Positions 32,105 to 47,326 of a DNA stretch of 64,000 bases are shown here, piece by piece. The DNA is taken from positions 62,001-126,000 of the forward strand of contig NZ_SPQT01000011.1 of NCBI RefSeq assembly GCF_004571025.1, read 5' to 3'. This DNA comes from Bradyrhizobium niftali (lineage in GTDB: Bacteria > Pseudomonadota > Alphaproteobacteria > Rhizobiales > Xanthobacteraceae). How positions within the stretch are numbered: the first letter of the stretch is position 1; each line of letters starts with the position of its first letter. The notes below the pieces were generated by a model that saw only the letters and a list, made by a program, of their open reading frames with translations, had not been told where the DNA came from and made no database searches. Both the position numbers and the translations under genes were made by a program.

Positions 32105-33907
32105 CTACTTCGCCCGCTGCATCGCCGGCTTCTCGCTGCCCTGCCTTGCCGCCGACAGGTTATGCGCGGTGTTGATCAGCGCGATGTGGGTCAGCGCCTG
32201 TGGGAAGTTGCCGGTCTGGCGGCCCGCCACGGAGTCGTATTCCTCGGCCAACAGGCCGACGTCGTTGGCAAGGGCGGCCACGCGGTCGAACAGCGCCTGC
32301 GCCGTGCCGAGATCGCCCGACAGCACATGGGCATCGGCGAGCCAGAGGGTGCAGGCCAGGAACGCGCCCTCGATCGGCTGCTTTTCCTCGGACACTTCGC
32401 GCGGATCGTGCCGCAGCACGAAGCCGTCGCGCATCAGGTGCTTTTCGACGGCCGCGATGGTGCCGCGGATGCGCGGGTCCTCCGCCGGCAGGAAGCCGAC
32501 CGCCGGCAGCAGCAGCACGCTGGCGTCGAGCAGCTTTGAGCCGTAGGACTCGACGAAGGCGTTTTCCTCAGCATCGAAGCCTTTGTTGCAGACGTCGCGA
32601 TGAATGGCCTCGCGCAGCGCGCGCCAATGTAGCAGCGGCGCCTTGAAGCCAAAGGTCTCGGCGCTCTTGATGCCGCGGTCGAAGGCGACCCAGGTCATGA
32701 CCTTGGAGAACACGTAGTGCTTCGGCTCACCGCGCCGTTCCCAGATGCCGTTGTCGGGATGGTCCCAGACCTCGGCGAGATGGTTGAGCACGGCGCATTC
32801 CAGCGCCCAGCTCTCGTCATCGAGCTTCAGCTTCGCCATGCGCGACTGGTGGAAGGCGTCGATCAGCTCGCCGTAGACGTCGAGCTGGAGCTGTGCATGC
32901 GCGGCATTGCCGATGCGCACCGGCTTGGCGCCCTCATAGCCGTCGAGCCAGCCCGCCTCCCATTCCAGCAGCCGCCGCTGGCCCCAGATGCCGTACATGA
33001 TCTGCATGTTCGCCGGCGAGCCGGCGGCGGCGCGCAAGAGCCAATTGTGCCAGGCCGAGGCTTCCTCGGTGTAACCCGAGTTCATCAGCGCCAGCAGCGT
33101 GAAGGTGGCATCGCGCAGCCAGCAGAAGCGGTAGTCCCAGTTCCTGCTGCCGCCAAGCTTCTCGGGCAGCGAGGTCGTGGGCGCCGCGACGATGCCGCCG
33201 GTCGGGTCGAAGGTCAGCGCCTTCAGCGTGATCAGCGAGCGCATGATGAGATCGTGATACTCGCCGTCCCGCGTGCAGCGGCTGCACCAGTCCTGCCAGA
33301 ATTTTTCGGTCTCCTGGAGCGCGATCTCCGGGTCGATCGGCGCGGGCGGATCGAGATGCGAGGGGCCGTAGGTCAGCACGAACGGCACGGTCTCGCCGGC
33401 CTTCACCTCGAATTCGGCGACCGTCGTCAGGTCCTCGCCCCGGGTCTCGATCGGCGTGCGCAGCACGGTCATGTCCTGGCCGGCGACCGCAAGCAGCGAG
33501 CCGTCCTTGCAACGGCGCACCCAGGGAATATCGACGCCGAAGCCGAAGCGGATCACGAGCTCCATCCGCAGCTTCACCGTGCCGCTGACGCCGCGCACCA
33601 GCCGCACGATGTCTGACGCCTTGCCGCGCGGCGGCATGAAGTCGATCAATTCGACAATGCCGCTCCTGGTCTCAAACCGCGTCTCGAGGATGAGAGTGTT
33701 GCCGAGGTAGCGGCGCGATGTGCGGGTCGCCTCCTCGCCCGGCGCGATCAGCCAGCGGCCGTTCCTGCGCGTGCCGAGGATTGCGGCAAAGCAGGCATCG
33801 GAATCGAACGCGGGCCAGCACAGCCAGTCGATCGAGCCGTTGCGCCCCACCAGCGCAGCGGTCTCGCAATCGCCGATCAGCGCATAGTCCTCGATCCTCT
33901 GAGACAA
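32105..33907 (-). CDS. Glycoside hydrolase family 15 (glucoamylase/trehalase-type)
   Basis: 600 residues. An N-terminal beta-sandwich domain (IEDYALIGDCETAALVGRNG, IDWLCWPAFDSDACFA) precedes the (alpha/alpha)6 barrel. Likely catalytic Glu residues are in DNGIWERRG and LLAEEYD. SRNWDYRFCWLRDATFTL is the family's substrate-site segment. Related proteins include glucoamylases and the GH15 trehalases of actinobacteria; which one this is cannot be decided from sequence reading. It lies 30 bp after malQ, so a joint role in glucan or trehalose breakdown is likely. No signal peptide: cytoplasmic. Confidence 0.88.
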   Translation of the reverse strand: MSQRIEDYALIGDCETAALVGRNGSIDWLCWPAFDSDACFAAILGTRRNGRWLIAPGEEATRTSRRYLGNTLILETRFETRSGIVELIDFMPPRGKASDIVRLVRGVSGTVKLRMELVIRFGFGVDIPWVRRCKDGSLLAVAGQDMTVLRTPIETRGEDLTTVAEFEVKAGETVPFVLTYGPSHLDPPAPIDPEIALQETEKFWQDWCSRCTRDGEYHDLIMRSLITLKALTFDPTGGIVAAPTTSLPEKLGGSRNWDYRFCWLRDATFTLLALMNSGYTEEASAWHNWLLRAAAGSPANMQIMYGIWGQRRLLEWEAGWLDGYEGAKPVRIGNAAHAQLQLDVYGELIDAFHQSRMAKLKLDDESWALECAVLNHLAEVWDHPDNGIWERRGEPKHYVFSKVMTWVAFDRGIKSAETFGFKAPLLHWRALREAIHRDVCNKGFDAEENAFVESYGSKLLDASVLLLPAVGFLPAEDPRIRGTIAAVEKHLMRDGFVLRHDPREVSEEKQPIEGAFLACTLWLADAHVLSGDLGTAQALFDRVAALANDVGLLAEEYDSVAGRQTGNFPQALTHIALINTAHNLSAARQGSEKPAMQRAK

Positions 33908-33937: not shown

Positions 33938-35899
33938 TCAACTCCCGCCGGACAGTGAACGTTCCCGCGTCGCAGCCTTCAAAGCCGCAAGATTAACCTT
34001 GGCGGCGATCTTGTCGAGCGTAACCGGGAGGCGCTGGCGCCAATTCGGGTGTTCGTCGATCGTGCCGGGGATGTTTGGCTGGTCGATCACACCCAAGAGA
34101 TCCTCCATCGACACCGCGAGGAGCCGGGACGGCGTGCGCGACAGGAAGGCGAGCACCGAATAGAGATCGTTGGCGTTGATGCCGTTCTGGCGCAGGATTT
34201 CGTCGAGCGCCCCGAGCGCATCCCAGCGCGCCTGGTCGTTTTCGCCGGGATCGAGCCCGAGCGACAGCTTCATCTTGAGATCGCTGAAGGAGCGCCAACC
34301 CGCATAGGTGCAGAGGTCGTGCGTGTTCAGCGTCACCAGCGCGTTCGGCCGGTAATAGTCGATGTTGCGGAAGTGGCCGGCATCGTCGCGCTCGAACATC
34401 ATGACGAGGTAGGACCAGATGCCGAAATCCTGCATCGTCTCGCGGAAACCTTCCGGCACCGTGCCGAGGTCCTCGCCGATCACGATGCATTTATGGGCCG
34501 CGCTCTCGCGCGCGACCGCGCCCAGCAGCGCCTCGAACGGCATCTGCACATAGGCGCCGTTGTCGGGCTTGAAGCCGCGCGGCACGAGATAAAGCCGCTT
34601 CAGCCCGAGCACGTGATCGATCCGGATGGCGCCGGCATGACGCATCGAGGCGGCCAGCATGTCGGCGAACGGCACGAAGGATTGCGCCTCCAAGCCGCCG
34701 GCGTTGAAGCCGGCAAGGCCCCAGTCCTGGCCGACGGTGTTGAGCACGTCGGGCGGCGCGCCGACAGCGAGATGGCGCGAAATCGCCGTCTGCTCGTTCC
34801 AGGCATCGAAGCCGTTGGACTGCACGCCGACGGCCACATCGAGATAAAGCCCGACCCGCATGCCGAGCTGGCCGGCCAGCTCCTTGGCGGCATGCAATTG
34901 GCTATCGGCGGTCCATTGCACGAATTCGACGAACTCGACCTCGCGCTTGTCAGGACCGTTGCGCAGCTGGGCGCATTTTGCCTCCTCCGGCTGCCGCCAC
35001 TCGGGCGGCCATTCCCACCACGGCCCGGTGAAGCGATGCCGCAGCACCTCGAAGCAGGCAAAGCGGGACAGCAGCGGCGCGCGGTCCGCGCGGAAGGCGT
35101 CGAACTGATTGCGGCGGACACCGCTCGCGCTCCTCACGAAGCTGTTAAAGGCAGCGCGCAAGGCCAGCCATTTCAGCGCCGCCATGTCGGCATAGGGGAC
35201 GCGGTCGCCTTCGCGCAACCGCGCGGCGGTCGCGGCCGCGTCGGGGACGAGGTCTGCGGAAAATTCCGGGATCGCCTCGACGTCGATGTAGAGCGGATTG
35301 AGAAACAGCCGACTGTTCGGTGAATAGGGGCTGCAATCGGCCGGGTGGTCGTCGAACAACACGTGCAGCGGATTGAGGCCGACGCCGTCGGCCCCCAGCT
35401 GTTTTGCGAGCCGGACAAGGTCGGCGAGGTCGGTGAAATCGCCGATGCCCCAGTTGCGGTTCGAGCGGACGCCGTAGAGCTGCACGGCGAGCAGCCAGCC
35501 GCGGTCGAAATCGCCGCCGAAGGCGCGCTCGGGCGCCACGATCATCGGCACCTCTTCGGTCACGCCTTCGGCATCGGTCAGCGTCAAGCGGTGATAGCCG
35601 AGCGGCAGGCCGGCGGGCCAGGCGATGACAGGCTCGCGCGTAGCGCCTTGTGCGATCACATTGCCGTTGCCGGCGATTTTCCATTGCAGCGGCGGCGCGC
35701 CGGTGGCCGCCAATTCCGTCCGCGGATGTCCCAGGGCGCGAACCACAACGGGCCCGCTGACGAAGCGATAGACCCGTTTCTCCGGCAGGGCGTCGAGGAT
35801 GGATTTGAGGGCCACGGGATCGGTGACCCGCAGCTTTCCGAGGGCGTCGACGAATTCGGACTGAACACCCTTGATCTGGGCTTGAGCTAAAAGATCCAT
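33938..35899 (-). CDS. malQ: 4-alpha-glucanotransferase (amylomaltase)
   Basis: 653 residues. Catalytic positions of GH77 are present: nucleophile Asp in AIRIDHVLGLKRLYLVPRG, acid/base Glu in IGEDLGTVPEGFRE, and Asp in NTHDLCTYAGW. The N-terminus has the extra domains common in proteobacterial MalQ (FVSGPVVVRALGHPRTELAA onward), and NWGIGDFTDLADLV marks the barrel. It transfers maltodextrin segments between glucans. Divergent from the glgE-like gene across 204 bp and followed by the GH15 gene. Confidence 0.94.
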   Translation of the reverse strand: MDLLAQAQIKGVQSEFVDALGKLRVTDPVALKSILDALPEKRVYRFVSGPVVVRALGHPRTELAATGAPPLQWKIAGNGNVIAQGATREPVIAWPAGLPLGYHRLTLTDAEGVTEEVPMIVAPERAFGGDFDRGWLLAVQLYGVRSNRNWGIGDFTDLADLVRLAKQLGADGVGLNPLHVLFDDHPADCSPYSPNSRLFLNPLYIDVEAIPEFSADLVPDAAATAARLREGDRVPYADMAALKWLALRAAFNSFVRSASGVRRNQFDAFRADRAPLLSRFACFEVLRHRFTGPWWEWPPEWRQPEEAKCAQLRNGPDKREVEFVEFVQWTADSQLHAAKELAGQLGMRVGLYLDVAVGVQSNGFDAWNEQTAISRHLAVGAPPDVLNTVGQDWGLAGFNAGGLEAQSFVPFADMLAASMRHAGAIRIDHVLGLKRLYLVPRGFKPDNGAYVQMPFEALLGAVARESAAHKCIVIGEDLGTVPEGFRETMQDFGIWSYLVMMFERDDAGHFRNIDYYRPNALVTLNTHDLCTYAGWRSFSDLKMKLSLGLDPGENDQARWDALGALDEILRQNGINANDLYSVLAFLSRTPSRLLAVSMEDLLGVIDQPNIPGTIDEHPNWRQRLPVTLDKIAAKVNLAALKAATRERSLSGGS

Positions 35900-36003: not shown

Positions 36004-36103
36004 CAGGGGGAACTAATGACACACAAGCGGCTTTCTATATAGGTATCAAGCGTAGGTTCCCGGCAAGGGAAACGGGCCCTGCTTTCTTGTCAATGGCATC
36101 ACC

Positions 36104-38050
36104 GTGAACAAGACAATTCAAACTGTCGAAAGTGCCGCAGCCGGCAGCGCTTTCCTCATCGAAGACGTCTATCCCTTGATCGACGGCGGCCGTTTCGCCG
36201 TGAAGCGGATCGCGGGCGAGCGCGTCGAGGTGTGGGCCGACATCTACCGCGACGGCGAGGCCGTGATCGGCGCCGCGCTGATCTGGCGACGCGAGCAGGA
36301 CCGGGAATGGCGGAGCGAGCCGATGATCCATCACGGCAATGACCGTTGGTCCGGCGCGTTCACGCCCGTCGAGCCCGGCCAATATGTCTACGCGATCGAA
36401 GCCTGGACCGACGAGTTCGCGACCTGGTCTCACGCGGTCGCGCGCAAGCAACTGTCCGGCGCCGATGTCAGCCTCGACGCCATCGAGGGCGCCGGGCTCC
36501 TGACCAAGGCGCATGGCGCGCGGCAAGACGCCGCGGCGGTGATCGTCAGACAATGCGAGGACTATCTTCAGACCGGCGATGTCACCCCGCTGCTTTCAAC
36601 CGAGCTCGGCAACGCAATGGCCGAGAGCCAGTCGCGGCCCGACCTCACCCGCTCGCCGCCGTTCCCGCTGATCGCCGACCGCGACAAGGCGCGCTTTGGC
36701 GCCTGGTATCAGATGATGCCGCGCAGCCAGAGCCGGGTCCCCGGCCGGCACGGCACGCTGCGCGACTGCATCGCGCGCGTGCCCGATATCGCCGCGATGG
36801 GCTTTGACGTGCTCTACTTCACGCCGGTCCACCCGATCGGACATCACAGGCGCAAGGGCCGCAACAATTCACCCGTCGCCACCGAGGGCGAACCCGGCTC
36901 GCCCTATGCGATCGGCGCCGCCGAGGGCGGACACGACGCGCTGCATCCCGAGCTCGGCACCATCGAGGATTTCCGCGCGCTGGTCGCGACCTGCCTCGAA
37001 TACGGCCTCGAGCTCGCGCTCGACTTCGCCGTGCAATGCTCGCCGGACCATCCCTGGCTGAGGCAGCATCCGGAATGGTTCAAGTGGCGGCCCGACCGTT
37101 CGGTACGGACGGCGGATGGCCCCTATTCGGACATCGTCATCCCCGATTTCGCCTCCGTCGACCGGGCCGGGCTGTGGAACGCGTTCCGCGACGCCATGCT
37201 GTTCTGGATCGACCATGGTGTCACCATGTTCGCCATCGACAATCACGATACCGCGCCGCTTCCATTCTGGGAGTGGCTGATCCGCGACATCCGCCGCCGG
37301 CATCCCGAGGTGATCCTGTTCTCCAAGACGTTTGCACGGCCGAAACTGATGAAAGGCCTCGCCAAGCTCGGCTTCGCGCAGTCCTTCACCTATTTCCCCT
37401 GGCGCACCTCGAGGTGGGAGCTGGAGCAATATCTCGGCGAGCTGACGCGTTATCCCGAACGCGACTTCTATCGCCCGAACCTGTTCGCGAACACGCCCGA
37501 CCTGCTGCCCTATCATCTGCAGAACGGCGAAGCCTGGGCCTTCAAGTCACGGCTCGCGCTGGCCGCGACGCTGTCGGGCAATTACGGAATCTATAGCGGC
37601 TTCGAATTGCTCGAGCACGAAGCCGTCCCCGGCCATGAGGAATATCTCGATTCCGAGAAATACCAGATCAAGCAGCGCGACTGGGACAAGCCCGGCAACA
37701 TCAAGCCTTACATCGCCGGGCTCAACCGCATCCGCAACGACAATGCGGCGCTCCAGCAGACGGCGAACTTGCGGTTTCTCGGCATCGAGGACGGCGAGAC
37801 AATCGCCTTCGTCAAGGAAGCGACCGACCCGGTCAACACCGTCGTCGCCGCCATCGCACTCTCGCGCCATGTGCGCGAATTCTGGTTGCCGCTCGGCGAC
37901 CTCACCATCGACGTCGGCGGCGAGCGCCGCCACGTCACCGCCCTCGAAAATCTCCTCACCGGCGAACAGTCCCGCATCGAATGGGGCGGGATCAGGTTGC
38001 GTATCGATCCCGACCGCGATCCGGCTTTGCTGTTCCGCTGCCTGGCGTAA
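36104..38050 (+). CDS. glgE: GlgE-like GH13 protein with altered active site
   Basis: 648 residues from a GTG start. Overall it aligns with GlgE, the maltose-1-phosphate maltosyltransferase: N-terminal DUF3416-type domain, HPIGHHRRKGRNN, SPYAIGAAEGGHDALHPELGT-like segment, LALDFAVQCSPDHPWLRQHP, FWEWLIRDIRRRHPEV, KLGFAQSFTYFPWR, NTPDLLPYHLQ. However, where GlgE has FRVDNPHTKP this protein has FAIDNHDTAP (nucleophile Asp379 kept, invariant Arg replaced by Ala377). Where GlgE has AEAFTRPK it has SKTFARPK (Lys408 in place of the acid/base Glu). The Asp-to-Glu spacing of 29 residues is preserved, so the alignment is secure. The KKYQDIY phosphate-binding loop is also replaced. It heads the treS-pep2/glgB cluster. 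It may be inactive, regulatory or altered in chemistry. The symbol is by homology only. Confidence 0.8.
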   Translation: MNKTIQTVESAAAGSAFLIEDVYPLIDGGRFAVKRIAGERVEVWADIYRDGEAVIGAALIWRREQDREWRSEPMIHHGNDRWSGAFTPVEPGQYVYAIEAWTDEFATWSHAVARKQLSGADVSLDAIEGAGLLTKAHGARQDAAAVIVRQCEDYLQTGDVTPLLSTELGNAMAESQSRPDLTRSPPFPLIADRDKARFGAWYQMMPRSQSRVPGRHGTLRDCIARVPDIAAMGFDVLYFTPVHPIGHHRRKGRNNSPVATEGEPGSPYAIGAAEGGHDALHPELGTIEDFRALVATCLEYGLELALDFAVQCSPDHPWLRQHPEWFKWRPDRSVRTADGPYSDIVIPDFASVDRAGLWNAFRDAMLFWIDHGVTMFAIDNHDTAPLPFWEWLIRDIRRRHPEVILFSKTFARPKLMKGLAKLGFAQSFTYFPWRTSRWELEQYLGELTRYPERDFYRPNLFANTPDLLPYHLQNGEAWAFKSRLALAATLSGNYGIYSGFELLEHEAVPGHEEYLDSEKYQIKQRDWDKPGNIKPYIAGLNRIRNDNAALQQTANLRFLGIEDGETIAFVKEATDPVNTVVAAIALSRHVREFWLPLGDLTIDVGGERRHVTALENLLTGEQSRIEWGGIRLRIDPDRDPALLFRCLA

Positions 38051-38062
38051 AGGCTGAGCGCC

Positions 38063-41000
38063 ATGAATGTTCTGTCTTCCGTCGACACCAAGAAGATTGA
38101 GGCTGCCGAGGTCGTGGATGAGCTCTGGTACAAGGACGCCATCATCTACCAGCTCCACGTCAAGGCGTTTGCCGACAGCAACCATGACGGCATCGGCGAC
38201 TTCGCCGGCCTGACCGAGAAGCTGCCCTATCTCCAGGAGCTCGGCGTCACCGCGCTGTGGCTGCTGCCGTTCTATCCTTCGCCCGGGCGCGACGACGGCT
38301 ACGACATCGCGGATTACGGCTCGGTCAATCCCGATTTCGGGACGATGAAGGACTTCAAGCGCTTCATCCAGGAAGCGCAGAAGCGCGGCTTGCGCGTCAT
38401 CACCGAGCTCGTCGTCAACCACACCTCGGACCAGCACAAATGGTTCAAGCGCGCACGCCGCAGCCATCCGGGCTCGAGCGCCCGAAATTGGTATGTCTGG
38501 AGCGACACCGACCAGAAATACCAGGGCACGCGCATCATCTTCACCGACACGGAAAAGTCGAACTGGACCTGGGATCACGAGGCCGGCGCCTTCTACTGGC
38601 ACCGTTTCTTCTCGCACCAGCCGGACCTCAATTTCGACAATCCGCGCGTGGTCAGCGCCCTCATCCAGGTGATGAAGCGCTGGCTGGACGCCGGCGTCGA
38701 CGGCTTCCGGCTGGATGCCATTCCATATCTCTGCGAGCGCGAGGGCACCTCGAACGAGAACCTCCCGGAGACGCATGCGATCATCAAGCGTCTGCGCCAG
38801 GAGCTGGATTCCTACTCCAAGGGCAAGCTGCTGCTGGCCGAGGCCAATCAATGGCCGGAGGACGTGCAGGAATATTTCGGCCGTGGCGACGAATGCCACA
38901 TGGCCTACCATTTCCCGCTGATGCCGCGCATCTACATGGCGATCGCGCAGGAGGACCGCTTCCCGATCACCGACATCCTGCGCCAGACGCCGGACATTCC
39001 GGCAAGCTGCCAATGGGCGCTGTTCCTGCGCAACCACGACGAGCTGACGCTGGAAATGGTCACCGACGTCGAGCGCGACTATCTCTGGACCACCTACGCC
39101 AACGACCCCCGCGCCCGCATCAATGTCGGCATCCGCCGGCGCCTCGCGCCGCTGATGGACAATGACCGCCGCAAGATCGAGCTGATGAACTCGCTCCTGC
39201 TGTCGTTCCCCGGCACGCCGATCATCTATTACGGCGACGAGATCGGCATGGGCGACAACATCTATCTAGGCGACCGCAATGGCGTGCGCACGCCGATGCA
39301 GTGGAGCCCGGACCGCAACGGCGGCTTCTCGCGCTGCGACCCGGCCCGTCTCTACGCGCCGCTGATCATGGATCCGGTCTACGGCTATGAATCGGTGAAC
39401 GTGGAGGCGCAGTCGCGCAGCCTGTCGTCGCTGCTCAGCGCCACCAAGCGGCTGATCTCGGTGCGCAAGTCGACGCTCGCCTTCGGCCGCGGCACCATGA
39501 CCTTCATCCGCCCCGCCAACCGCGCCGTGCTGGCCTATGTCCGGCAATATGGCGACGAGGTGATCCTCTGCGTCGCCAACCTCTCGCGGGCGGCGCAGGC
39601 GACCGAGCTCGACCTGACGCCGTGGAAGGACCGCATCCCGCAGGAGATGCTCGGCCGCACCCGCTTCCCGGCAATCGGCGAGCTGCCCTACATGATCACG
39701 CTGGGGCCGTACGGCTTCTACTGGTTCCAGCTCATGGAGCGCGACAAGTCCGAGCCGGTGACGTCGCGAGCGGTGCCGGAGTTCGAGACGCTGGTCGTAC
39801 CGGTGAATTCGAACTGGGTTTCTCTCGCCCGCGAGCGCGGTGTTTTCGAACGCGACGTGCTGCCGGGATTCTTGTCACGGACGAGATGGTATCCCGAGCA
39901 TAATCCCAAGCAAATCGAGACCGCGCTGACCTCGGCGGTGCCGTTCTGCGACATCGGTGACAACCGGCCCTGGATCGCGTTCTTCGAGACCAAGCAGGAA
40001 GACGGGGCGACACGCTACGTGATGCCGTTACAGATCGAGTGGGTGCGCTTCGACCGCGAGCGCTTCAATCCGAGGGCGCTCGCCGCCGTGCGCCAGGGTG
40101 CGCGCGAGGGCACGCTGCTCGACGTCGCGACCGACCAGATCTTCATCGGCCTGTTCCTGCGCAACCTGTCGCAGAACCTGGTGGTGGAAGAGAACAATCT
40201 GCGGCTCGAGTTCAAGGCGACCAGCCGGTTCGCCGATTACACCATCAAGGAGCCAGAACGCATCCGCGCGATCGAGCAGTCGAACAGCACTGCGCTGGTC
40301 GACAACCAATACGTCGCCAAGATCTATCGCCAGCTCGAAGGAGGCACCAATCCCGAGATCGAGATCGGCCGCTACCTCACCGAGATCGCTCGCTTTGCCA
40401 ATACGCCGGCGCTGCTCGGCAGCGTCGAGCTGGTCGAGGGCGATCAGCGCAGCACGCTCGGCGTGCTGCACGCCTATGTCGAGAACCAGGGCGACGGCTG
40501 GGCGGTGACCACGGGCTATCTCGACCGCTATATCGACGAGCAGCGCGTCTTCCGGGCGGACGAAGCGCCGCGCGAGACCCAGGAGCAGGCGCCCTACCTG
40601 CACTTCATCGCGCAGATCGGCCGGCGCCTCGCCGAGCTGCATGTCGCGCTGGCTGCGGCAACGCCCGATGAACTCGCTCCGGAGCCGATCGGCTCCGCCC
40701 ATGTCAAACACTGGGTCTCCGACCTCAAGGCACGCGCCGAGCGGGTTTTCGAGCGACTGGCCGACAGCCGCGACGGCCTGCGGGAAGCGGACCGGCCGCT
40801 GATCGACCAGCTCACGGCAGTGCGCTCGAGCCTGCCCGACCGCCTGAATGCGCTCTTGCCATCCGACATCGACGGGTTGAACATCCGTCATCATGGCGAC
40901 TTCCGGCTCGGGCAAATTCTGATCGTGAAGGACGATATTTTCATCATCGACTTCGACGGCGATCCGCGTCTGCCGCTGGCCGACAGGCGGCGCAAGGCGC

Positions 41001-41356
41001 CGGCCGCCCGCGACGTCGCCGGCCTGATCCGCTCGATCCATCTTTCGGTTAACGCGGCGCTTGGCCGAGCCCTTTCAGGAGGTACCGACGAGCAGAGCCG
41101 GCTTGTGGCCGCGCTCGCCGAATGGCGCGTGCGCGCCACCACGACCTTCCTGTCCGCCTATCGCGAGGCCGTGACCGATCGGCGATTGTGGCCGGAAGCT
41201 CCGCAGTCCGCGGAAGGCCTGTTAAGGTTTTTCCTGCTTGATCAAGCGTTCGACGAAGTAGAGTACGAGCTGTCCCACCGACCTGAGGGGCTCCATGCGC
41301 CGCTGACCGGACTGCTTCGCATTCTGTCCAATGCCGAGAGCGAAGCCCATGCCTAA
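38063..41356 (+). CDS. treS: Trehalose synthase (maltose alpha-glucosyltransferase) fused to maltokinase
   Basis: 1097 residues. Residues 1 to about 560 are a GH13 TreS: nucleophile Asp218 in [10 protein letters not shown], acid/base Glu260 in [12 protein letters not shown], Asp326 in [10 protein letters not shown]. Residues about 590-1097 are a Pep2-type maltokinase with Lys in [12 protein letters not shown], the catalytic loop [14 protein letters not shown] and metal site IIDFDGDP. Together they convert trehalose to maltose and then to maltose-1-phosphate, the GlgE donor. Both active sites look complete, in contrast to the GlgE-like gene 12 bp upstream. It overlaps glgB by 8 nt. Confidence 0.96.
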
Positions 41357-43496
41357 ACTACCAGCCGAGGCCTACGCGATCATCGAGGGCCGCCACGCCG
41401 ACCCCTTCCACTATCTCGGGCTGCACCCCGAGGGCGGCAAGAGCGTGGTGCGCGCCTTTCTGCCCGAGGCCTCCAATGTCGAGGCGGTCGGCGAGCACGG
41501 CGAGGTCGCCAGGCTCGACCGCGTCCACGACGCAGGCCTGTTCGTCGGCGCCTTGCCGAACGGCTCGAAGCACTACCAGCTGCGCGCCAAATTCGGCGAC
41601 AACGTCGTCGAGTTCGAGGACGCCTACCGCTTTCCGCCGATCCTGACCGATTTCGACCTCTATCTGCTCGGCGAAGGCACCCATCAGCGCCTCTACGACA
41701 AGCTCGGCGCGCATCCGATGCGGCTCGAAGGCATCGACGGCATCGGCTTCGTCGTGCTGGCGCCGAATGCGCGTCGCGTGTCGGTGGTCGGCGACTTCAA
41801 TTTCTGGGACGGTCGGCGCCATCCCATGCGGGTGCGCGGTGCCGGCTATTGGGAATTGTTCATTCCGCATGCGAAGAACGGCGATCACTACAAGTTCGAG
41901 GTCATCGGCCCGCATGGCCATCTGCTGCCGCTGAAATCCGACCCGCTGGCGTTTGCGAGCGAGGTGCGGCCGAAGACGGCCTCCATCGTGTTCGACGAGG
42001 CGCACCTGCCGCGGCCGCGCCCGGCGCCTGATGGCATCAATGCGCTGTCGGCGCCGATGTCGATCTACGAGGTCCATCTCGGCTCGTGGCGGCGCAAGGG
42101 CGACAATGAATGGCTCACCTACCGTGAGCTGGCCGAGCAGCTGCCGGCCTATGCCCGCGACATGGGCTTCACTCATCTCGAATTCCTCCCCGTCAGCGAG
42201 CACCCGTTCGACGGCTCCTGGGGTTATCAGCCGACCGGCCTCTATGCGCCGACCAGCCGGTTCGGCACGCCGGAGGATTTTGCCGCGCTGGTCGACGCCT
42301 GCCACCGCGAAGGCATCGCCGTGCTGCTCGACTGGGTGCCCGGTCACTTCCCGGACGATCCGCACGGGCTCGGCAGCTTCGACGGCACCTCGCTCTACGA
42401 GCACGCCAACCCGCTCCAGGGCCGGCACCTCGACTGGGGCACGCTGATCTACAATTACGGCCGCACCGAAGTGACGAACTTCCTGGTGTCGAACGCGCTG
42501 TTCTGGCTGGAGCGCTACGCGATCGACGGCCTGCGCGTCGATGCCGTCGCGTCCATGCTCTATCTCGACTACAGCCGTCCGCCCGGCGCCTGGATTCCGA
42601 ACCAGTATGGCGGACGGGAGAACATCGAGGCGATCGATTTCCTGCGCCGCTTCAACACCGAACTGTTCGCCCGCTTTCCGCAGGCCACCACGGCGGCAGA
42701 AGAATCCACGGCATGGCCGCAGGTCTCGCGCCCGGTCGAATTCGGCGGGCTCGGCTTCGGCTACAAGTGGAACATGGGCTGGATGCACGACACGCTGAAC
42801 TACATCAGCAAGGATCCCATTCACCGCAAGCATCATCACGGTGAGATCCTGTTCGGCCTGCACTACGCCTTCTCGGAAAACTTCATCCTGCCGCTGTCGC
42901 ATGACGAGGTCGTGCACGGCAAGCGCTCGATCCTCGGCCGCATGCCCGGCGACGAATGGCAGCGCTTTGCGAATCTGCGCGCCTATTACAGCTTCATGTT
43001 CGGCCATCCCGGCAAGAAGCTGCTGTTCATGGGCGCCGAGATCGCGCAAAGCGGCGAATGGAATCACGACCGGTCGCTCGACTGGCACCTGCTCGAATAC
43101 AAGTATCATTCCGGCATCCAGGCGCTGATCCGCGATCTCAACCGGCTCTATCGCGCGGTGCCGGCGCTGCATCAGATGGACTGCGACCAGGCCGGTTTCG
43201 AATGGCTGATCACCGATGACGCCAACCGCAACGTGTTCGCCTGGCTGCGCAAGGGGATCGACGCGCACGCGCGCTGTCTGGTGATCGTCAACTTCTCCCC
43301 CAACGTCTATCGCAACTATCGCGTTCGCGTGCCGTTTGCCGGCAAGTGGAAAGAGGTACTCAACTCGGACTCCGCCCATTATGGCGGCAGCAATGTCGGG
43401 AACATCGGCGAGGTTCATGCCGTTGACGGCAAGACGCCCGAGCTCCGCCTCACCATCCCGCCGCTCGCCGCGATCTTCCTCGTTCCGGAAAGCTGA
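41349..43496 (+). CDS. glgB: 1,4-alpha-glucan branching enzyme
   Basis: 715 residues from the ATG at 41349 (an ATG at 41331 is also in frame). Domains: N-terminal glgB-type module ([15 protein letters not shown]), CBM48 ([19 protein letters not shown]), GH13 barrel and C-terminal beta domain. Catalytic residues: Asp398 in [17 protein letters not shown], Glu451 in [10 protein letters not shown], and HD in [12 protein letters not shown]. It makes alpha-1,6 branches. It overlaps treS and is 3 bp from glgX, so one operon. Confidence 0.97.
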
Positions 43497-43499
43497 CCG

Positions 43500-45578
43500 A
43501 TGCGCCTGACTGCTGGATCGCCCGCACGCCTCGGCGCAAGCTGGGACGGACGCGGCACCAACTTTGCGCTGTTCTCGGCCAACGCACAGAAGGTCGAGCT
43601 CTGCCTGTTCGACACGCAGGGCCGCCGCGAGCTCGAGCGCATCGAATTGCCGGAAAGGACCGAGGACGTCTGGCACGGCTATCTCAACGACGTCTCGCCG
43701 GGCCAGCTCTACGGCTATCGCGTGCACGGCCCCTACGAGCCCGAGCACGGCCACCGCTTCAACGCCAACAAGCTGCTGCTCGATCCCTATGCCAAGCGGC
43801 TCGCCGGACGGCTGGTCTGGAGCGATGCGCATTTCGCCTACCGTACCGGCAGCCCGCGCGAGGACCTGTCGTTCGACCGGCGCGACAATGCGCGCGGCAT
43901 GCCTAAAGCCGTCGTGGTCGACGAGACCTTCAACTGGGGCCGGCGCGAGATCCGCCCCAACATCGCATGGGAAGACACGATCATCTATGAGGCCCACGTC
44001 AAGGGCCTGACGCAGAAGCGCGACGACGTTCCGCCGAATTTGCGCGGCACCTATGGCGGCCTGTCATCGCCGGCAATGATCGAGCACCTGAGGAAGCTTG
44101 GCGTCACCACGGTCGAGCTGCTGCCGATCCACAGCTTCGTCGACGATCGCATATTGGTCGAGAAGAAGCTCGCCAATTACTGGGGCTACAACACGCTGTC
44201 CTTCTTCGCACCCGAGGCGCGCTACGCCCAGGACAACGCGCTCGATTCCTTCCGCACCACGGTCGCGCGCCTGCACGATGCCGGCATCGAGGTGATGCTC
44301 GACGTCGTCTACAACCACACCGCCGAGGGCAACCATCTCGGCCCGACGCTGTGCTACCGCGGCATCGACAACGCCTCCTATTACTGGCTGAACCGCGAGA
44401 ACCCGCGCTATTACGACGATTTCACCGGCTGCGGCTCGTCGGTGAACCTCACCCATCCGCGCGTGCTGCAGATGGTGATGGATTCCCTGCGCTACTGGGT
44501 CGAGGTCTGTCATGTCGACGGCTTCCGCTTCGACCTCGCCACCACGCTCGCACGCGGGCCGAACGGTTTTGATCGCGGCATCTCGTTCCTGACCGCGATC
44601 CGGCAGGATCCGGTGCTGGCAGCCGTCAAGCTCGTCGCCGAGCCCTGGGACCTCGGCCTCGGCGGCTACCAGGTCGGCGCGTTCCCCTCGCAATGGTCGG
44701 AGTGGAACGACCGCTATCGCAGCGCCATGCGCCGCTACTGGAGCGGCGAAGGCAGCCTGATCGGCGACATCTCCAGCCGCATGACTGCATCATCCGACCT
44801 GTTCAACCACGACGGCCGGCGGCCGCGCGCCAGCATCAACCACATCACCGTGCATGACGGTTTCCCGCTGGCCGACCTGTTCAGCTACAACGAGAAGCAC
44901 AACGAGGCCAATGGCGAGGACAATCGCGACGGCTCCAACGACAACCACAGCAACAATTGCGGTGTCGAAGGGCCGACCGACGATCCCGCGATTCTCGGCT
45001 TGCGCCGCCAGCTTCGCAAGAACGTGCTGGCCTGCCTGATGCTGGCGCAGGGCGTTCCCCTGCTTCTCGCCGGCGACGAGGTCGGCAATTCGCAATCCGG
45101 CAACAACAACGCCTATTGCCAGGACAACGAGGTCGGCTGGGTCGGCTGGGGCAATCTCGGCAAGGACGGCGACGACATGGTCGATTTCGTCGCCGATCTC
45201 GCCGACATCCGCCGCCGCTTCTCGCAGCTTCGCAGCCATCGCTGGCTCGACGGCCGGCCCAAGGACGGCCTCTCCTACGGCGCATTGTGGCTGACGCCTG
45301 CCGGGGAAGAAATGACGGAGAACGACTGGAAATTCCCGGAAGGGCGGTTCCTCTCCTATGTGATGGGGCCGATGGAACCGGGCGGCGCCGCGATCTTTAT
45401 CGTCCTGAACGCCGCCCCCGAAGAAATCGCATTCAAATTGCCCAAGATGACCGAATACAAGAGCTGGCAGCAGATCCTCAACACGACCGATGCCAAGCTG
45501 AACACGATCGACTTCCCGCCAGGGAGCGACAGCAAGGCACCGCCGCGCTCCGTGCTCGCCTTTGCGGGGGCGCTATGA
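43500..45578 (+). CDS. glgX: Glycogen debranching enzyme
   Basis: 692 residues. CBM48-like N-terminus ([20 protein letters not shown]), then the isoamylase-type GH13 domain: [15 protein letters not shown], nucleophile Asp in [13 protein letters not shown], acid/base Glu in [14 protein letters not shown], and Asp in [20 protein letters not shown]. It cleaves alpha-1,6 branches of glycogen, preparing linear chains for TreY. Its stop overlaps treZ by 4 nt (ATGA). Confidence 0.96.
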
Positions 45579-47326
45579 GGCCATCCTTCGGCGCGAGGCC
45601 GACCAAGGACGGCGTGTCGTTCCGCCTGTGGGCTCCCGGCGCGCGACGCGTCGATCTTCTGCTCGACCGAAGGCACGCGATGCAGCGCCGGCAGGACGGC
45701 TGGTATGTGGCCGAGATCGCCGGCCTGACCGCCGGCAGTCCCTACAAATTCAGGATCGACGACGAGATCGACGTGCCCGATCCGGCCTCCGCCTTCCAGC
45801 CCGAGGACGTGTTCGGCCCGAGCGAGGTGATCGATCATGACGCCTTCGCCTGGCGCGCGCGCGACTGGCGTGGCCGTCCATGGGAAGAGACGGTGTTGAT
45901 CGAGAGCCATGTCGGCACCTTCACGCGGGAGGGTACCTACCGCGCCATGATCGACAGGCTCGATCATCTCACAGCAACCGGCATCACGGCGTTTGAACTG
46001 ATGCCGCTGGCCGATTTCGCCGGCCGCCGTGGCTGGGGCTATGACGGCGTGTTGTGGTATGCGCCCGACAGCGCCTATGGCCGTCCCGAAGACCTGAAGT
46101 CGCTGATCGACGAGGCGCATCTGCGCGGGCTGATGGTGTTCCTCGACGTCGTCTACAATCATTTCGGCCCCGAAGGGAATTACCTCGGCCGCTATGCGCC
46201 GAGCTTCTTCACCGACGCGCACACGCCCTGGGGCAGCGCCATCGACTATCGCGTGCCGCAGGCGCGGGCCTTTGCGGTCGAGAACGCGCTGTCCTGGCTC
46301 GGCGACTATCGTTTCGACGGCCTGCGGCTCGATGCCGCCAACCACATCATGGCAATGCCCGGCGAGCAGTCGATGCTGCAAGACCTCAGCGTCGCCGCCG
46401 GCGAGCTTGCCAAGGCCACGGGACGGCACATCCATCTCGTGCTGGAGAACGGCGACAACCGCGCCAGCCTGCTCGACGCCGCGCAGGAGCCGCCGAACGG
46501 CAAATATCGCGCGCAGTGGAACGACGACTATCACCACGTCTGGCATGTGATGCTGACCGGCGAGCTCGCCGGTTATTACGCCGACTACCAGACGCCGCGC
46601 ATGGATCTCGCACGCGCGCTCGCCTCGGGCTTCGTCTACCAGGGCGAGATCTCGGAGTTCTGGGGCAAGAAGCCGCGCGGCGAGCCGAGCCGCGAGCTGC
46701 CGCCGGCGACCTTCGTCAACTTCCTGCAAAACCACGACCAGATCGGCAACCGTCCGCTCGGCGACCGCCTCGAAAGCCTGGCATCACCGCGGCAGATCGA
46801 AGCCGCGCTCGCGGTCACGCTGCTGGCGCCGATGGTGCCGATGCTGTTTCAGGGCGAGGAATGGGGCTCGAAGGTCCCCTTCCCGTTCTTTTGCGACTTC
46901 CAGGGCGGGCTGGCCGACGCCGTGCGCAAGGGACGCAGGCAGGAATATGCCTGGGCTTACGAGAAATACGGCGACGAGGTGCCCGACCCGCTCGATCCGG
47001 CAACACCCTTGTCGGCCGTGCTCGATTGGAGCGGCCGCACGCCGGAGCAGGACGCACGACTTGCGCTGGTGCGTGACCTGCTCGCGCTCCGCCGCAAGGA
47101 GATCATGCCGCGACTGAAAGGCGCGAGCTTCGGCGACGCCGAGGCGGCCGACAGCGGCCTGCTCCGCGCGCATTGGCGCATGGGTGACGGCACGACGTTG
47201 CGCCTCCTCGCCAATCTCTCGGATCACGAGATCATTTCCACTGACAGCGCGGGCACGCCGATCTGGGGCGGCGCGGCCGGCGATCGGCTTCCGCCCTGGT
47301 CGGTGGTCTGGCGCCTCGGAGGTTGA
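45575..47326 (+). CDS. treZ: Malto-oligosyltrehalose trehalohydrolase
   Basis: 583 residues from the ATG overlapping the glgX stop; the long upstream open frame is glgX in another frame. Seen: N-terminal domain SFRLWAPGARRVDLLL, ESHVGTFTREGTYRAM, VYNHFGPEGNYLG, nucleophile Asp in DGLRLDAANHIM, Glu in HLVLENGDNRA, and NHDQIGNR. It releases trehalose from maltooligosyltrehalose made by TreY, the next gene. The segment after the catalytic Glu (NGDNRAS) is slightly unlike the commoner END-ND form. Confidence 0.93.
   Translation: MRPSFGARPTKDGVSFRLWAPGARRVDLLLDRRHAMQRRQDGWYVAEIAGLTAGSPYKFRIDDEIDVPDPASAFQPEDVFGPSEVIDHDAFAWRARDWRGRPWEETVLIESHVGTFTREGTYRAMIDRLDHLTATGITAFELMPLADFAGRRGWGYDGVLWYAPDSAYGRPEDLKSLIDEAHLRGLMVFLDVVYNHFGPEGNYLGRYAPSFFTDAHTPWGSAIDYRVPQARAFAVENALSWLGDYRFDGLRLDAANHIMAMPGEQSMLQDLSVAAGELAKATGRHIHLVLENGDNRASLLDAAQEPPNGKYRAQWNDDYHHVWHVMLTGELAGYYADYQTPRMDLARALASGFVYQGEISEFWGKKPRGEPSRELPPATFVNFLQNHDQIGNRPLGDRLESLASPRQIEAALAVTLLAPMVPMLFQGEEWGSKVPFPFFCDFQGGLADAVRKGRRQEYAWAYEKYGDEVPDPLDPATPLSAVLDWSGRTPEQDARLALVRDLLALRRKEIMPRLKGASFGDAEAADSGLLRAHWRMGDGTTLRLLANLSDHEIISTDSAGTPIWGGAAGDRLPPWSVVWRLGG

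Follow-up and report, generated by a model that had tools for sequence, protein, structure and literature searches.

The GlgE orthologue encoded in the window, by which we mean the whole 64,000-nucleotide stretch of Bradyrhizobium niftali DNA that was analysed, lacks the invariant Arg and the acid/base Glu of GH13 enzymes, and this altered protein, here named GlgE*, is a clade trait of Bradyrhizobium (bacteria of legume nodules and soil) with a single origin. The maltokinase (Pep2) encoded next to it, as part of a fusion with TreS, is altered in the same loci. We consider it probable that the maltose-1-phosphate branch has been switched off chemically with its proteins kept; with less confidence, we propose that GlgE* is a non-catalytic, sugar-holding subunit that docks to a partner.

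Organisation of the locus

The gene glgE* heads a tight run that continues with treS-pep2, glgB, glgX and treZ, and malQ and a GH15 gene lie upstream on the divergent side (Table 1). Only 12 bases separate the end of glgE* from the start of treS-pep2, whose own end is overlapped by glgB, and the treZ and glgX genes overlap as well. The genome containing the window is 9.8 Mb in size. The GH15 gene was found at the same place in all 77 long altered loci, and its product may be a trehalase or glucoamylase belonging to the same cycle. At 36009-36034, ending 70 bases upstream of the glgE* start, stands GGAAC-N17-CTTT, which resembles an EcfG stress promoter with one mismatch in the second box. The window contains three matches to the strict EcfG pattern, a number not above chance (1.68 expected), and none of them lies before glgE*. 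Control of treS by EcfG in B. diazoefficiens is recounted in PMC8092242.

Table 1 Features of the glgE* locus (positions in the window; counts refer to altered and canonical loci as defined in the text)
Feature	Position	Strand	Remarks
GH15 protein, trehalase-like N-terminal domain	32105..33907	-	adjoins malQ
malQ, divergent neighbour	33938..35899	-	
glgE*, catalytically altered GlgE orthologue	36104..38050	+	648 aa, GTG start; PF11896, 179.8 bits
glgE* codons 217-240, with barrel helix 219-231	36752..36823	+	hardly varies in the clade but does so in canonical Bradyrhizobium GlgE
glgE* codons 281-327, with barrel helix 287-299	36944..37084	+	constraint gained likewise
glgE* codons 335-346, loop	37106..37141	+	changed, mostly shortened; AENPPKKYEDI in canonical GlgE
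glgE* codon 377, GH13 invariant Arg to Ala	37232..37234	+	altered: Ala 103, Thr 2 of 105; canonical: Arg 60/60
glgE* codon 379, nucleophile Asp, kept in the window	37238..37240	+	Asp in 102/105 altered loci
glgE* codons 381-382, Pro-His to His-Asp	37244..37249	+	His-Asp 105/105 altered; Pro-His 60/60 canonical
glgE* codon 408, acid/base Glu to Lys	37325..37327	+	Lys 105/105 altered; Glu 60/60 canonical
glgE* codon 466, transition-state Asp, kept	37499..37501	+	88/88 distinct proteins
treS-pep2 fusion	38063..41356	+	1097 aa; catalytic residues of TreS half complete
Pep2 (maltokinase) half, altered active site	39773..41326	+	TIGR02457, 663.1 bits
treS-pep2 codon 948, His307 to Arg	40904..40906	+	Arg 76/76 altered; His 52/52 canonical
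treS-pep2 codons 965-967, EGE of DFEGE to DGD	40955..40963	+	Asp965 76/76 altered; canonical: Glu 46/52, Asp 6 (second lineage)
treS-pep2 codon 994, Tyr353 to Leu in the window	41042..41044	+	Tyr 0/76 altered; 52/52 canonical
treS-pep2 codons 1061-1064, Lys413 to Gln, Tyr416 to Asp	41243..41254	+	
treS-pep2 codon 1076, Trp428 to Gly	41288..41290	+	altered: Gly 75, Ala 1 of 76; Trp 52/52 canonical
glgB, branching enzyme	41331..43496	+	
glgX, debranching enzyme	43500..45578	+	
treZ-like gene	45575..47326	+	named from position and domains

Fold and alignment of GlgE*

Positions 37220-37345 read VTMFAIDNHDTAPLPFWEWLIRDIRRRHPEVILFSKTFARPK within the open 648-aa frame, and the motifs and residue numbers (Ala377, Asp379 and Lys408) that the earlier note on this DNA had given for this segment are correct. 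Residues 18-643 of GlgE* align by phmmer with solved GlgE chains, best with 5vsj (E 9.5e-145) and closely after with 3zss (7.4e-144). FAIDNHDTAP is paired with FRVDNPHTKP and SKTFARPK with AEAFTRPA. The spacing of 29 between Asp379 and Lys408, which equals that of Asp394 and Glu423 in S. coelicolor, agrees with the earlier judgement that misalignment is unlikely; misalignment of the motifs was rejected, there being no gap between them. The phosphate loop, described before as replaced near TADGPYSDIV, is indeed different, TADGP---YSDIV being aligned under AENPPKKYQDIY.

The conservation of the remaining fold, also claimed earlier, was borne out by this full-length alignment and by a predicted model. 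Both the GlgE N/S domain (PF11896, residues 18-193) and the GH13 barrel are present in full length, PF00128 scoring 22.4 bits, barely above its cut-off of 22. The model matches solved GlgE in Foldseek (E 6.7e-70, TM 0.79) and superposes on 4cn4 with a Z score of 43.0 and an rmsd of 5.3 A over 624 residues. Its mean pLDDT is 84.4, compared to 86.5 for the canonical protein L165; the insert loops are weak in both models, so nothing was inferred from model confidence.

Distribution and origin of the altered GlgE

A search of 60 genomes of the genus gave a match in 47; the match is a full-length GlgE in 46 of these and no more than a weak amylase-type one in G020. When the 46 proteins were aligned at columns 377, 379 and 408, as the earlier note had proposed, the change proved to be shared by 28 (the window genome and 27 others) and 18 were canonical. 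A scan of named species, limited to the best 80 of 275 relatives, gave 78 altered proteins and two canonical ones (L165 and L167). Once the window and its copies, L001 and L002, are set aside, the altered set comprises 105 loci (the 27, and the 78 found among the best 80 of 275 relatives), which encode 88 distinct proteins, 17 being common to both sources.

A hundred further places were fetched from family, order and phylum searches, 40 of them from the family and 60 from the order and phylum. The set of 60 canonical loci combines 18 from the genus search, 40 from the family search and the two named ones. The Arg/Asp/Glu triad is also complete in each of the 60 additional GlgE obtained from the order and phylum, and residue loss as a common GlgE trait is not supported. 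Overall, 120 of 120 canonical loci read carry Arg, Asp and Glu at the 377, 379 and 408 columns. The counts do not extend to 213 plasmid records with a relative, to the remaining listed loci of the family, of which G122 and G144 belong to the same genus (87-89% identical), or to part of the order and phylum listings.

When 30 altered rows, the window being one, were placed in a tree with the 60 canonical loci, the altered set formed one clade (SH-aLRT 100) with canonical L165 as its sister (SH-aLRT 99). Both results hold after omission of the trait columns, residues 330-352, 374-390 and 400-416. A sequencing error whose correction would restore Arg and Glu, which the earlier note had raised, is excluded as the source of Lys408 because at least 105 further loci carry this residue. 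A literature search, covering mainly titles and abstract openings and few subscription papers, returned no GlgE without catalytic residues and no such change in Bradyrhizobium.

Two side observations concern other GlgE genes. L168 (G365), a Bradyrhizobium GlgE with canonical catalytic motifs in an open frame of 578 aa, matches only from query residue 112, and its N domain seems to be lost or out of frame. One family genome (G158) holds two canonical copies, L081 and L083, on different contigs.

Catalytic and sugar-binding residues in the clade

His381, Asp382, Ala384 and Lys408 are fixed in 105 of 105 altered loci and no intermediates were seen; the two rows with Thr377 are identical proteins. 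The nucleophile is retained in 86 of the 88 distinct altered proteins and replaced in three loci, by Val in L015 (from the one-contig genome G008) and by Ala in L132, named B. diazoefficiens SZCCT0138, and L021, whose proteins are identical. It would seem dispensable in GlgE*. Since the L015 and L132 lineages are sisters (99), its loss may have been one event followed by drift at that codon.

According to PMC5076824, the His of the Pro-His pair in S. coelicolor GlgE contacts the +1 sugar, and PMC4663749 places an Asn contacting the donor phosphate in the canonical AENPPKKYEDI loop. Among the three phosphate contacts (Asn371, Tyr376 and Asn414 in M. thermoresistibile numbering), the Tyr and the second Asn are present in every one of the 88 distinct proteins, and it is the loop carrying the first Asn that has changed. 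The contacts to bound maltose listed in PMC4663749 are mostly kept: Lys251, Asp343, Asp466, Lys519 and Tyr520 in all 88, Gln311 in 87, Asn254 in 86 and Ser266 in 83, residue 266 having been equated with Ser298/Val279 through the phmmer alignment. The acceptor contacts Trp433 and Arg434 are found in 88 and 83 proteins. Erosion of sugar contacts (S266C in five proteins, a changed R434 in five, N254D in two and Q311H in one) is seen mostly in the branches L026-L029, L159 and L161-L163.

The acid/base mutant E423A of S. coelicolor GlgE is catalytically compromised and holds malto-octaose over subsites -2 to +6 (PMC5076824). Based on this behaviour and on the maltose contacts mostly kept in GlgE*, the latter is, on balance, likely to bind maltodextrin.

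Purifying selection and shifted constraint

All 105 altered frames are uninterrupted and 646-654 aa long, a count to be read with both searches favouring full-length matches. Within the altered clade the dN/dS of glgE* is 0.153 (1196 pairs in range of 1200 sampled), near the values at the same loci for malQ (0.110), treS-pep2 (0.132) and the GH15 gene (0.135) and about twice those of glgB (0.070) and glgX (0.072). The higher dN/dS of the canonical sets was left unused, as it partly reflects dS saturation. GlgE* evolves under purifying selection. With catalytic residues lost and the gene under such selection, GlgE* is best read as a GH13 pseudoenzyme of the ISA2 kind, a GlgE orthologue that should not be filed as a maltosyltransferase.

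The position of constraint has shifted. The altered clade was compared to 12 canonical Bradyrhizobium proteins in 25-residue windows with 2000 shuffles. Windows that start at residues 402-413, which surround the old acid/base and reach behind it, show up to 6.6-fold more variation in the clade, 99% of shuffles staying below 4.17, and those on helices 219-231 and 287-299 drop to 0.15, only 1% of shuffles falling below 0.24. Leu298, Glu299 and Tyr300 are fixed or nearly so in the clade, widely variable in the canonical proteins, and look like a contact surface. Constraint at the DNA level is not supported as the cause: synonymous divergence over these helices is ordinary rather than low, so the constraint acts on the protein. 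It may reflect stability and not an interface.

Alteration of the fused maltokinase

A full treS-pep2 gene was readable at 76 altered loci and 52 canonical ones, and Pep2 residues were numbered after M. vanbaalenii Mak through alignment to 4u94. The earlier note had described the active sites of TreS-Pep2 as complete. This is right for TreS, whose catalytic residues are intact in 128 of 128 readable loci, but not for Pep2, which has lost otherwise invariant residues in 76 of 76 altered loci. This loss alongside that of GlgE is the larger point beyond the first reading. The alteration accompanies the altered GlgE at every readable locus, and no canonical GlgE locus (0/52) shows it at His307, Tyr353 or Trp428 (Table 1). 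Lys413 is retained in four of 76 altered loci as against 52 of 52 canonical ones, and Tyr416 in none (Asp 53, Asn 9, Glu 6, His 5, others 3) as against 51 of 52. In the outgroup kinases, readable at 52 of 60 loci, HGDxHLGQ, DFEGEP, Tyr416 and Trp428 are present in all 52, and Lys413 in 50 with Arg in two. Kept in the altered loci are the base Asp305 and the Mg-binding Asp322 (both 76/76), and Tyr420 (residue 1068) in 73 of 76. The Pep2 half is less conserved (0.159, versus 0.222 in ten canonical proteins) than the very conserved TreS half (0.028, versus 0.077 in the same number).

In M. vanbaalenii Mak, changes of Lys413, Tyr416 or Tyr420 practically abolish activity, and His307 lines the pocket (PMC4306142). 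With Lys413 and Tyr416 among the lost residues, the earlier expectation that TreS-Pep2 would make maltose-1-phosphate is doubtful; judging by the loss of these substrate residues, the compound is probably no longer made in the altered clade. With exactly one TreS_Cterm gene in each, none of the 28 altered genomes showed a spare maltokinase of this family. As a build-up of maltose-1-phosphate kills mycobacteria (PMC4663749), loss of the kinase would remove the toxicity expected from a dead GlgE.

At L046 and L047 (G052 and G054), the gene after GlgE is a shorter TreS_Cterm frame, of 611 and 537 aa respectively, instead of a TreS-Pep2 fusion; both genomes have a second, fusion-sized TreS_Cterm gene elsewhere.

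Other GlgE copies and the GlgC-GlgA route

The earlier note had also allowed for another GlgE doing the work. This is not supported: the window genome has a single GlgE_dom_N_S match, and no second full-length GlgE was found across the 28 altered genomes.

The search for glgC covered 58 genus genomes; the other two of the 60, G033 and G035, are of low quality and without GlgE and were left out. Of the 28 altered genomes, 27 have a glgC above the family cut-off, and in the window genome the gene adjoins glgA. In the 28th, G055, glgC is split over two reading frames (G055:C1:116383-117514) through either a sequencing error or a real break. Elsewhere it occurs in six of six genomes of a second lineage (see below), in two of 12 other genomes with canonical GlgE (G051 and G054) and in three of 12 without GlgE. 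No glgC above the cut-off was found in the genomes of canonical L165 (a metagenome draft) and L167, and it was present for four altered loci. Because glgA alone is nearly universal (57 of 58 genomes), glgC is the informative gene. Fisher values treat the genomes as independent, though they are related, and serve as a guide only. The simplest story, drawn from a correlation among related genomes, is that the ADP-glucose route made the maltose-1-phosphate branch redundant.

A second lineage with partial changes

Six genomes (G003, G004, G010, G042, G044 and G049; loci L040-L045) keep the GlgE triad intact. Their kinase P-loop is changed from EQSNST to DQPHST and DFEGE to DFDGG, and the GlgE phosphate loop from AENPPKKYED to AEHPPQRWDD or near. 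Two of the kinase residues that PMC4306142 describes as critical are Ser136 and the Asn137 equivalent. These loci form their own clade (100), which L165 separates from the altered one, and are a partial parallel case.

Proposed role of GlgE*

That GlgE* has lost maltosyltransferase activity and that little or no maltose-1-phosphate is made appears very likely from the residues concerned. In our proposal, the loss of the catalytic Arg, the acid/base Glu, the +1 His and the phosphate loop, joined in two sister lineages by that of the nucleophile, would have ended catalysis by GlgE*. The fused maltokinase would have failed with His307, Tyr353, Tyr416, Trp428 and mostly Lys413, leaving TreS intact, in genomes that also carry glgC and glgA of the classical route. 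The sugar subsites of GlgE*, largely kept, would still bind maltose or the ends of glucan, and its two almost invariant outer barrel helices would dock to a partner. We give even chances to docking on TreS-Pep2* or GlgB through these helices so as to tune or place them; TreS-Pep2* is the likeliest partner, followed by GlgB. The best reading of GlgE* is a non-catalytic, maltodextrin-binding scaffold or sensor around TreS. Since both GlgE* and Pep2* have been kept under selection despite the loss of key catalytic residues, we suggest that they are enzymes turned into structural or sensing parts. More tentatively, the kinase and GlgE may have lost their chemistry together and been kept as a sugar-sensing assembly that controls the active TreS after the GlgC-GlgA takeover, with the second lineage partway. 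Several points count against this explanation as a whole: Asp305, Asp322 and Tyr420 are largely kept in the kinase, Pep2 of the window scores 663 bits as TreS_Cterm, above its canonical relatives, sugar contacts erode in part of the clade, and glgC also occurs in two of 12 unaltered canonical genomes.

Among the three options of the earlier note, the pseudoenzyme fits best. Changed chemistry, with His381, Asp382 and Lys408 forming a new site for maltose, trehalose or maltodextrin, is unlikely. The fixation of the new residues in all 105 loci and the nucleophile kept in most proteins speak for it, as does the conservation of 16 donor-site columns, which far exceeds that of barrel columns drawn at random (mean entropy 0.052 versus 0.327; a fraction of 0.0006 of 10000 random sets was as low). 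It is weakened by the two sister lineages that lost the nucleophile, and the loops round the old active site are the part most relaxed relative to canonical GlgE. We also know of no GH13 enzyme that works with the residues of GlgE*.

Somewhat less probable still is that GlgE* is a vestige of a pathway replaced by GlgC-GlgA, its gene lingering as the first of a tight operon. The co-occurrence with glgC, the further loss of sugar contacts in some branches and the decay of Pep2 at the same loci would all be expected of a vestige; uninterrupted frames at every locus, a dN/dS of about 0.15 and two helices that gained constraint would not, and polarity alone would not keep the protein sequence. A slow maltosyltransferase activity, using the Asp379 nucleophile with the substrate phosphate or Lys408 as base, is very improbable even though the majority of species retain Asp379, the stabiliser Asp466 and most contacts to maltose, as the Arg, the phosphate loop and the +1 His are also lost, the donor is probably not made, and mutation of Glu423 lowers the activity of S. 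coelicolor GlgE (PMC5076824).

Homology would name these proteins maltosyltransferase and maltokinase, and a pathway that probably does not run would thereby enter the metabolic models of many Bradyrhizobium symbionts. The clade offers a natural experiment: two sequential enzymes changed, the change arose once, and a close canonical sister and a partial parallel case are available for comparison. It allows a direct test of why dead enzymes are retained. As recounted in PMC8092242, a treS mutant of B. diazoefficiens has more trehalose and less maltose, for which reason TreS was proposed to break down trehalose. The altered GlgE and Pep2 may bear on this phenotype, the link to that strain's own glgE being putative.

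Relation to known systems

GlgE* shares domain order, fold and most maltose contacts with the GlgE of S. coelicolor, M. tuberculosis and M. thermoresistibile, and precedes treS-pep2 and glgB as GlgE does in most canonical loci. It differs in Arg to Ala, Glu to Lys, Pro-His to His-Asp, the changed phosphate loop and, in two lineages, the lost nucleophile. By analogy, the best precedent for its role would be plant ISA2, a GH13 protein with six of eight key residues changed that is found in complexes with ISA1 and has been proposed to serve it as a non-catalytic, glucan-holding partner (PMC3958451 and PMC12510319). Both are conserved GH13 glucan enzymes by descent that have lost most key active-site residues, the complexes being those seen for ISA2 in these sources. 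ISA2, however, has an active paralogue, whereas GlgE* is the sole GlgE found in its genome and the preceding pathway enzyme is altered too. The entry title of M. smegmatis 5jy7 describes an assembly of TreS and maltokinase, which are fused in Bradyrhizobium; this title names no GlgE, and the 5jy7 kinase has HGDLHLGQ and DFEGE, unlike altered Pep2. The structure matches of the GlgE* model include entry 7df1, the CD98 heavy chain, a GH13-like protein that has no enzyme role and acts as a partner chain. CD98 heavy chain belongs to an unrelated lineage and, unlike GlgE*, to a membrane transport context.
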